A DNA stretch of 64,000 bases from an uncultured Roseivirga sp. (lineage in GTDB: Bacteria; Bacteroidota; Bacteroidia; Cytophagales; Cyclobacteriaceae): assembly GCA_947493005.1 (NCBI GenBank), contig CANLOY010000001.1, positions 682,001 through 746,000 on the forward strand. The letters run 5' to 3'. A program made the position numbers and the translations under genes. The notes beneath the pieces were generated by a model. That model worked only from the letters and a program-made list of their open reading frames with translations, was not told the origin of the DNA and made no database searches. Shown piece by piece: positions 57,853 through 59,450 of the stretch; positions within the stretch are counted from its first letter, which is position 1; every line of letters starts with the position of its first letter.

Positions 57853-58086
57853 CTACTTATTCAACTTAGCAACGGTGCTCGAATAAATGGAAACAAAAAA
57901 GGGAACCGTATAAGTAATTAAGAATTTAGGCATATGTAGCTGATCAAAGTTTTGATTCACAAAGCATTCTCCCTGATTGATGCAGTTTAAAATGGTGCCC
58001 ACTATCAATGACATTTTAAGTGCTAACAGTAAGTTCTTCTTATCTGAGAAAGCCTGAAGAAAAAGATTCGAGGAACGTGCTTTCAT
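57853..58086 (-). CDS. nrtS: NrtS-like nitrate/nitrite transporter, small membrane protein
   Basis: A 77-residue protein with two hydrophobic segments (about 19-37 and 52-70). The signature ALKMSLIVGTILNCINQGECF followed by a second helix ITYTVPFFVSIYSSTVA matches the small NrtS family, reported to support nitrate/nitrite uptake. No nitrate reductase or other nitrogen genes are in the window, so its role here is uncertain. It lies 48 bp upstream of the hydrolase-OsmC gene and may be co-transcribed. Confidence 0.75.
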   Translation of the reverse strand: MKARSSNLFLQAFSDKKNLLLALKMSLIVGTILNCINQGECFVNQNFDQLHMPKFLITYTVPFFVSIYSSTVAKLNK

Positions 58087-58180
58087 TGCTTATGAATTTT
58101 ATGACCCAACACAAAATTGGGTTTTAAATTTAAAATGCAGTGTCTTCTAAATCACAATTTCAATAAATCACCAATATGCT

Positions 58181-58347
58181 ATAAGGGTCTTCCTCTTTCT
58201 TGTTGTTATTAAAGCGACTACCTTATGAGTATCGCAAACCGCCTGATGGTAAGTGTTGGTTAATTGAGGAATTACCAGCAAAAAGCTTCTGTCAACAAGG
58301 TGAGCGTGAACATAGATCCAAAGCCCGGGACTTTCCGGGCTTTTTTT
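58181..58347 (+). ncRNA. Candidate structured non-coding RNA with terminator (6S-like layout)
   Basis: About 165 nt with no ORF, ending in a strong intrinsic terminator that no upstream plus-strand gene explains. A closing stem pairs 58185-58190 with 58314-58319 (GGGTCT/AGATCC, one wobble). Across an unpaired bubble, CTTGTTG (58199-58205) pairs with CAACAAG (58293-58299), then AAGC (58212-58215) with GCTT (58285-58288). Inside lie a hairpin pairing ACTACC with GGTAAGT and a hairpin GGTTAATT-GAG-GAATTACC (58258-58276). A long rod broken by bubbles resembles 6S RNA, but I do not recognise the sequence with certainty; tmRNA, SRP and RNase P motifs are absent. Confidence 0.5.
58321..58347 (+). 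terminator. Strong intrinsic terminator of the candidate RNA
   Basis: AAGCCCGG-GACTTT-CCGGGCTT followed by a T-run. It ends a rightward transcript that starts upstream of it, in a region with no coding gene, and lies before ferrochelatase. Confidence 0.85.
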
Positions 58348-58394
58348 ATAGCAATGCAATTTTCTTTTGTTTCTGCTGAATAACGTAAAACAAA

Positions 58395-58402
58395 TATCTT
58401 TG
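58395..58402 (+). promoter_or_regulatory. Predicted -7 element for hemH
   Basis: TATCTTTG, an exact TAnnTTTG match, 28 bp before the hemH ATG and just after the terminator, so hemH probably has its own promoter. A TTTC lies 21 bp upstream as a weak -33. Confidence 0.55.
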
Positions 58403-58430: not shown

Positions 58431-59450
58431 ATGGGAAAAGAAAAGATTGGTGTTTTGCTGGTCAACCTGGGCACTCCAGATAGTCCATCAACCAAAGATG
58501 TAAGAAAATACCTTCGCGAATTTTTAATGGATGGCCGGGTGATAGATATCCCATATATTCCTCGTTTTCTTTTGGTCAATGGAATTATTGCTACGTTCAG
58601 GGCACCTAAATCAGCCAAAGAGTATGCTAAACTTTGGGAGGAAAGAGGCTCACCTCTTAAGTTTTATGGATATGACGTGAGAGATCTTCTTCAAAAGTCT
58701 CTGGGAGAAAATTATAAGGTGTCTTTGGGAATGAGATACCAAAGCCCGAGTATTGGGGAAGCCCTTGACGAGCTAAAAGCTGAAAATGTAAAACGAATTA
58801 TTGTCATTCCATTATTTCCTCAATATGCTTCGGCAAGTACTGGGTCTGTCTCTGAAAAAGTAAATGAGCTAGTAAGCAAATGGCAGATCATTCCATCGGT
58901 TTCTCATATCAATCAGTTCATGGATCATCCAAAGTTTTTGGAAGCATTTGCAAACAATGGCAAAGCATTAATGGAAAACCAAGAATATGATCATGTGATT
59001 TTCAGCTATCATGGCTTACCTGAAAGACAAATTAAAAAAGGTTCTGTTGGTCAACAGTGTCAATTAGGTACTTGTTGTAATAAGCTTCATGAGAAAAATA
59101 GGTATTGCTACAGAGCACAGTGCTTTTATACTTCCAGAGAGTTGGCCAAACGCTTAGGCTTAAAAGAAGGTGGTTATACTTCTACTTTCCAATCAAGATT
59201 AGGCAAAGACCCTTGGATTAAACCTTATACTGATGAAGTATTGACAGAATTACCTAAAAAAGGAATTAAGAAGGTACTTGTTTATTCTCCTGCATTCATA
59301 TCTGACTGTCTGGAAACGACACTTGAAGTTGGGGAAGAGTTCAAAGAAAGTTTTTTGGAATCTGGAGGTGATGTTTGGGATTTAGTACCGAGTCTGAACG
59401 TTTCAAATACTTGGATAGAGTGCCTTGAAGATTTGGTAAAATCAGCCTAG
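58431..59450 (+). CDS. hemH: Ferrochelatase
   Basis: A 339-residue enzyme inserting Fe(II) into protoporphyrin IX, the last step of heme b synthesis, at the membrane face. LVNLGTPDSPSTKDVRKYLREFL is the family N-terminus; the catalytic His is in IFSYHGLPERQI, and FLVNGIIATFRAPKSA and YSPAFISDCLETTLE are further signatures. A cysteine-rich stretch with QQCQLGTCCNK and YCYRAQC around residues 210-230 could reflect metal or cluster binding. It stands alone; its TAG overlaps the stop of the convergent lipoprotein gene. Confidence 0.96.
   Translation: MGKEKIGVLLVNLGTPDSPSTKDVRKYLREFLMDGRVIDIPYIPRFLLVNGIIATFRAPKSAKEYAKLWEERGSPLKFYGYDVRDLLQKSLGENYKVSLGMRYQSPSIGEALDELKAENVKRIIVIPLFPQYASASTGSVSEKVNELVSKWQIIPSVSHINQFMDHPKFLEAFANNGKALMENQEYDHVIFSYHGLPERQIKKGSVGQQCQLGTCCNKLHEKNRYCYRAQCFYTSRELAKRLGLKEGGYTSTFQSRLGKDPWIKPYTDEVLTELPKKGIKKVLVYSPAFISDCLETTLEVGEEFKESFLESGGDVWDLVPSLNVSNTWIECLEDLVKSA

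Follow-up and report, generated by a model that had tools for sequence, protein, structure and literature searches.

The gene-free stretch from 58181 to 58347 of a 64,000-nucleotide (nt) window of DNA from an uncultured Roseivirga sp. (contig CANLOY010000001.1, positions 682,001 to 746,000) forms the gap between the divergent genes nrtS and hemH and carries a strong plus-strand terminator. Judged from sequence comparison, it holds a conserved non-coding RNA with an intrinsic terminator and covarying helices. We consider it probable, if by no means certain, that this is an independent structured RNA of about 130 nt, that it is transcribed from a promoter of the extracytoplasmic function (ECF) type at 58182-58207 and ends at the terminator at 58320-58343, and that it belongs to an envelope-related regulon. 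An independent small RNA had been proposed by a sequence-only reading of the same DNA, and this proposal is backed by conservation, covariation, a terminator of its own and a shared upstream element.

Distribution and structure of the RNA

We refer to the loci of the RNA at 58181-58349 and its relatives as type A, and to the window's own genome as G000. Upstream of hemH, nine of 13 related loci (12 from Roseivirga and one from a Cytophagia bacterium, with hemH 75-84% identical to that of the window) have TAAGGGT, TGTT, CTACC, GAGGA, an ATAGATC-like segment and a terminator in common. Because MAFFT alignments misplaced the left arm of helix P2, three close sequences were taken as the basis of a first covariance model, R1, which matches the window at 1.1e-7, plus six other sequences outside the model. 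R2, grown from R1 to nine sequences with the window left out, matches the window at 58181-58349 with E=3.4e-11 and gives matches in 15 of the 19 genus genomes (E<=3.3e-9). Beyond the genus, R2 matched 16 places in 15 of 390 family genomes with E-values from 2e-4 to 0.02, in a search that used stricter filters and scored seven candidates per genome, so that distant relatives could escape it. These matches were rejected, since none of the 16 places holds TAAGGGT-N14-17-TGTT. A second R2 match in G000 was likewise rejected, as it corresponds to the last part of a long protein gene plus the terminator of that gene.

No Rfam family reaches its gathering cut-off in the window, and none comes near it at 58181-58347; permissive matches such as Trp_leader and rimP were discarded as sub-threshold and terminator-like. 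When the region was compared with 59 relatives by BLAST, the one outside match was confined to the final 56 nt of the query, which include the terminator, and the literature searched contained no paper combining Roseivirga with 'small RNA'. On these comparisons the RNA, which the sequence-only reading could not assign to either a known or a new family, belongs to a family that is absent from Rfam and has so far been found in the genus Roseivirga only. Among the four related hemH loci in which the RNA is missing, one (L003, in front of hemH at 415) retains nothing of it but ATAGATC and a partial terminator, as if the remainder had been deleted (judged by eye).

The structural evidence comes from 15 type A sequences. 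Both sides changed in 7 of 7 pairs of P2, in 6 of 7 pairs of P4 and in all 10 pairs of the terminator. With 88.6% paired, the covariation score was 0.675 compared to 0.246 for shuffled and at most 0.139 for slid alignments, where part of the score is built in since the alignment was fitted to the covariance model. When P2 was tested without an alignment, eight of ten sequences, some of them closely related, reached p<=0.024 and one 0.063.

Within the window the conserved parts follow each other on the plus strand. ACTACC at 58217-58222 lies near the predicted 5' end and might serve as a pairing or binding site (CTACC in 15/15 type A loci). Helix P2/P3 spans 58233-58306, with CGC at 58233-58235 opposite GCG at 58304-58306 and ACC at 58238-58240 opposite GGT at 58299-58301. 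It encloses hairpin P4 (58255-58279), whose loop at 58266-58270 reads GAGGA, as it does in 13 of the 15 loci. Between P2 and the terminator stands the conserved ATAGATC (58312-58318; ATAGAT in 11/15), followed by the terminator stem-loop at 58320-58343 and its T run. This stem has 10 pairs, 6 of them G-C, and is the richest in pairs of the six terminators listed between 57000 and 60000; the strength claimed for it is thus confirmed. The 5' CTA could pair with the UAG of ATAGATC to close the structure; this helix was rejected, given that it shows no covarying pair and that four of the 15 sequences cannot form one of its pairs.

The minimum-energy fold of 58170-58360 (-57.5 kcal/mol, z -3.75; one of 200 shuffles equally good) contains, paired, the complementary segments from which a rod-and-bubble shape had been proposed. 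However, the rod is not what is conserved. Its outer helices (58185-58190/58314-58319 and 58199-58205/58293-58299) differ from the covarying pairs and take bases from a conserved two-part element, which resembles promoter DNA in its behaviour. Imposing P1 and P4, with P2 still forming, the conserved architecture is predicted at -46.3 kcal/mol against -51.1 kcal/mol for the rod. In terms of these predictions the rod is a fold specific to the window, and no rod with a central bubble is conserved.

The real RNA is probably shorter than the gap, about 58214-58347, with its start placed by promoter geometry and its end by the terminator. A fold of exactly this segment yields -41.7 kcal/mol (z -2.85). 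P2 of the window forms in the fold from 58216 and is absent from the minimum-energy fold starting at 58214, in which a small 5' hairpin is preferred. The stretch had been described as free of open reading frames. This is not strictly so, as two mechanical frames overlap 58181-58347, of 59 amino acids (aa) on the plus and 63 aa on the minus strand; yet the gaps between homologs vary in length, which argues against a coding region.

A bipartite element shared with other RNAs and with protein genes

At the 5' edge of the conserved region, TAAGGGT (58182-58188, plus strand), similar in position to a -35 box, is invariant in 15/15 type A loci, and so is TGTT (58204-58207, plus strand), similar to a -10 box, which follows after exactly 15 nt in each of them. 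The letters of the spacer vary (mean identity 0.51). Such rigid spacing around a variable spacer, together with occurrences of the pattern in front of protein genes, suggests that TAAGGGT-N15-TGTT acts as DNA rather than as RNA. We scanned the 19 genus genomes for the pattern and counted a place as intergenic if it fell in no open reading frame of 80 aa or more. With a spacing of 15, 46 of 77 classified places were intergenic (15 of them type A or B loci), compared to 19 of 47 with a spacing of 16, 6 of 52 with 17, and 418 of 2820 random positions. Once the type A and B loci are set aside, 31 of the 62 remaining places are intergenic; counted by ortholog groups, which were formed by eye, the figures are 17/46 versus 6/52 (p=0.003). 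The element at 58182-58207 thus looks like promoter DNA, most likely of the ECF type. The letters TAAGGGT occurred, among the literature matches listed, in unrelated papers only. According to a 2020 paper, no recognition motif was known at that time for any alternative ECF sigma factor of Bacteroides thetaiotaomicron (PMC7366714).

Initially, we had read the same letters differently, namely TAAGGGT, TGTT and ACTACC as a protein- or ligand-binding module with a hairpin P1 at the 5' end of an RNA that spans all of 58181-58347. All three motifs are common to types A and B, some members could pair AAGG with CCTT, and the minimum-energy folds of two loci (L004, L009) contain a 5' hairpin ending in CTACCT. 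However, none of the five pairs of P1, the supposed helix between TAAGGGT and ACTACC, showed a double change, with the outermost one failing in nine of the 15 sequences, the fixed spacing of 15 nt with variable letters suits DNA better, and the element also precedes protein genes that lack ACTACC. The module was dropped in view of the spacing and the protein genes, and we now regard it as unlikely.

Two further RNAs appear behind the element. Type B was found in 11 of the 19 genomes (L113-L117, L214, L224, L245, L252, L259, L272), with the same element and with ACTACC directly before a terminator in 11/11 loci, although five of these were recognised partly by that very motif. Each of the 11 is followed by the same TPR/SMP-30-like gene (48-100% identity), and in six an acetyl-CoA hydrolase gene lies upstream. 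In G000 the element lies 81 nt before the counterpart of the TPR/SMP-30-like gene (50% identity), and a type B RNA is missing; in the 11 other genomes the type B RNA stands between the two. Type C comprises five loci (L253, L258, L265, L270, L275), in which the element is followed by TGTTTGTTCATCTT and then a terminator-like stretch. Three of them precede a SpoU-type RNA methylase-like gene, one of which was confirmed by Pfam. L235 and L244 were left out of type C, as the exact TGTTTGTTCATCTT is missing there.

Protein genes behind the element include FecR anti-sigma genes, 31-35 nt downstream in three genomes, and an ECF sigma gene 177 nt downstream in G015. In G000 itself the element occurs with a spacing of 16 (G000:C2:451205-451231, minus strand, L332) 112 nt upstream of an ECF-sigma-like gene, which is a candidate for the controlling sigma factor. 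In addition, the element precedes genes for aspartyl protease, PKD-like (below cut-off) and DUF4140 proteins, and many of the downstream proteins appear to be exported, their N-termini being judged by eye. Since the element stands before types B and C as well as before FecR, ECF sigma and apparently exported-protein genes, the RNA of the window is probably part of an envelope-related regulon.

Relation to hemH and to 6S RNA

The gap is bordered by nrtS (57853-58086, minus strand; NF038050, E=2.9e-10) and, outside the RNA, by the ferrochelatase gene hemH (58431-59450, plus strand; PF00762, E=6.2e-103). The nearest upstream gene is thus on the minus strand, in agreement with the earlier statement that no plus-strand gene lies upstream. 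Downstream of the RNA, TATCTTTG at 58395-58402 (plus strand, -36 from hemH) is hemH's own sigma-A-type -7 box, of the form TAnnTTTG. The distance from this box to the hemH start is 36-39 nt in the window and 11 related loci, and 20 nt in L014. The box is kept in 12 of the 13 related hemH loci, including all four without the RNA, and only L009 lacks it. In one locus (L010:2789-2952) a stretch with inverted CCTGAATTATGCAT ends lies between the RNA terminator and the hemH promoter, resembling a small insertion.

Several observations weigh against an independent RNA under ECF-type control. R2 gave no match in G005, G011, G017 (80% complete) and G018. P2 of the window itself, which is short, interrupted and mismatched, reached only p=0.83 in the alignment-free test. 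The N15 pattern shows a modest excess, with 88 occurrences in the 19 genomes versus 69 of its reversed form. The ECF-like protein of G000 scores 42.0 bits, just under the cut-off of 42.9, and its gene is 112 nt away from the element. Finally, 13 of the 15 type A loci have the RNA upstream of hemH and in the same orientation, and type B always precedes the same gene (11/11), which hints that type B may act in cis.

The last two points also speak for a leader or attenuator acting in cis on hemH, such that an upstream promoter starts the transcript and a regulated terminator lets the polymerase into hemH, which here begins about 90 nt past the terminator. Such a leader would always be found upstream of the gene it regulates and within its transcript. 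In G008 and G010, however, the RNA is away from hemH: the order (L150, L151) is nrtS on the minus strand, an Rrf2-type regulator, a CMD/AhpD-type gene and the RNA, and the next gene is unrelated and on the minus strand. Furthermore, hemH has its own TAnnTTTG box, which is also found where the RNA is missing, and no conserved antiterminator was noticed, a dedicated search for which was not made. We therefore think a hemH leader rather unlikely; the best reading of the sequences is that the RNA is independent of hemH, which keeps its own promoter. The same two genomes offer an argument for a further explanation, by which the region merely closes a neighbouring operon, as its 3' end or terminator, or is left over from a 3' untranslated region of the Rrf2-CMD pair: in both of them the CMD gene has the TAA of TAAGGGT as its stop codon. 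Against this, the upstream gene of the window points away from the RNA, yet P2 and P4 covary across the set, and we judge this explanation very unlikely.

Whether the RNA is a 6S RNA, which binds the housekeeping polymerase, had been raised on account of the rod-like minimum-energy fold, the length of about 165 nt and the terminator of its own. The 6S models RF00013 and RF01685 found nothing in G000 and nothing at this region up to E=10; for RF01685 this negative is weak on its own, as it matched no control genome. RF00013 had no match among 99 relatives. With RF01685, ten of 147 relatives gave matches at E<=0.1; all ten lie outside the genus, and no match exceeds the cut-off. GGCCTCA and TAACAG are common to six of the ten, which appear to be true 6S RNAs. 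From these six sequences, which come from other Cyclobacteriaceae genera, we built a covariance model, R3. It matches 17 of the 19 genus genomes (all but G007 and G015), and in G000 it points to a 6S candidate outside the window (G000:C6:111831-111985, minus strand, L187; E=6.3e-14), with a predicted rod fold of -57.9 kcal/mol (z -2.23) and no Rfam match at E<=0.1. At the 15 type A loci, in contrast, R3 gave no match at E<=10. Taking into account that the rod is not conserved and that four of the 19 genus genomes gave no type A match, the 6S identity is refuted as far as sequence allows, and we hold it to be extremely improbable. As a by-product, this gives a model for the 6S RNA of Cyclobacteriaceae.

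Proposed function and known systems

For the independent RNA the following course of events can be envisioned. To judge by pattern, spacing and neighbours, TAAGGGT-N15-TGTT would be recognised by an alternative sigma factor, the ECF type being the most likely, and RNA polymerase would start about 6-10 nt past TGTT, near ACTACC. The RNA would then fold into a long imperfect hairpin, in which the covarying P2 encloses P4 with its GAGGA loop, and the transcript would end at 58320-58343, where sequence and covariation place the terminator. The likeliest mode of action would be that the RNA pairs in trans with mRNAs through segments that are both accessible and conserved, ACUACC and the GAGGA loop, like RybB and MicA. 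We regard this as a tentative idea, in itself possible but doubtful, and rated it slightly lower once it was clear that type B always precedes the same gene. More tentative still is the wider picture of a Roseivirga ECF regulon of the envelope-stress type, with at least three separate RNAs (A, B and C), two of them sharing ACUACC, and TAAGGGT-N15/16-TGTT as its promoter code, which would be an independently evolved counterpart of sigma-E/RybB/MicA. If true, this code could be tested across the whole genus, the regulon with its several RNAs would lend itself to studying RNA control of the Bacteroidota envelope, and Rfam would gain a new RNA family.

Compared to known RNAs, that of the window resembles 6S-Flavo RNA (RF01685) in being a Bacteroidota RNA and in the rod of its minimum-energy fold, while it differs in giving no match to the model and in that G000 has a separate 6S-like RNA. 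Three further systems can be compared. GibS of Bacteroides thetaiotaomicron is likewise an intergenic small RNA of a Bacteroidota genus and is conserved together with a non-canonical two-box promoter, PM2, that also drives protein genes; however, PM2 is described as near-palindromic with boxes at -10 and -30, and the comparison covers the descriptions of promoter and RNA (PMC7366714). Rfp11 of Flavobacterium psychrophilum is a putative regulatory RNA expressed from SM6, a presumed ECF promoter, and the SM6 regulon also includes a sigma/anti-sigma pair and envelope proteins; the second box here is TGTT, in difference to SM6, and the comparison again covers the descriptions (PMC9723704). With RybB and MicA, the sigma-E-dependent small RNAs of Salmonella, neither homology nor an omp target is implied; what the RNA described here would share with them is the proposed logic alone, in which an envelope sigma factor drives small RNAs (PMC1804206).
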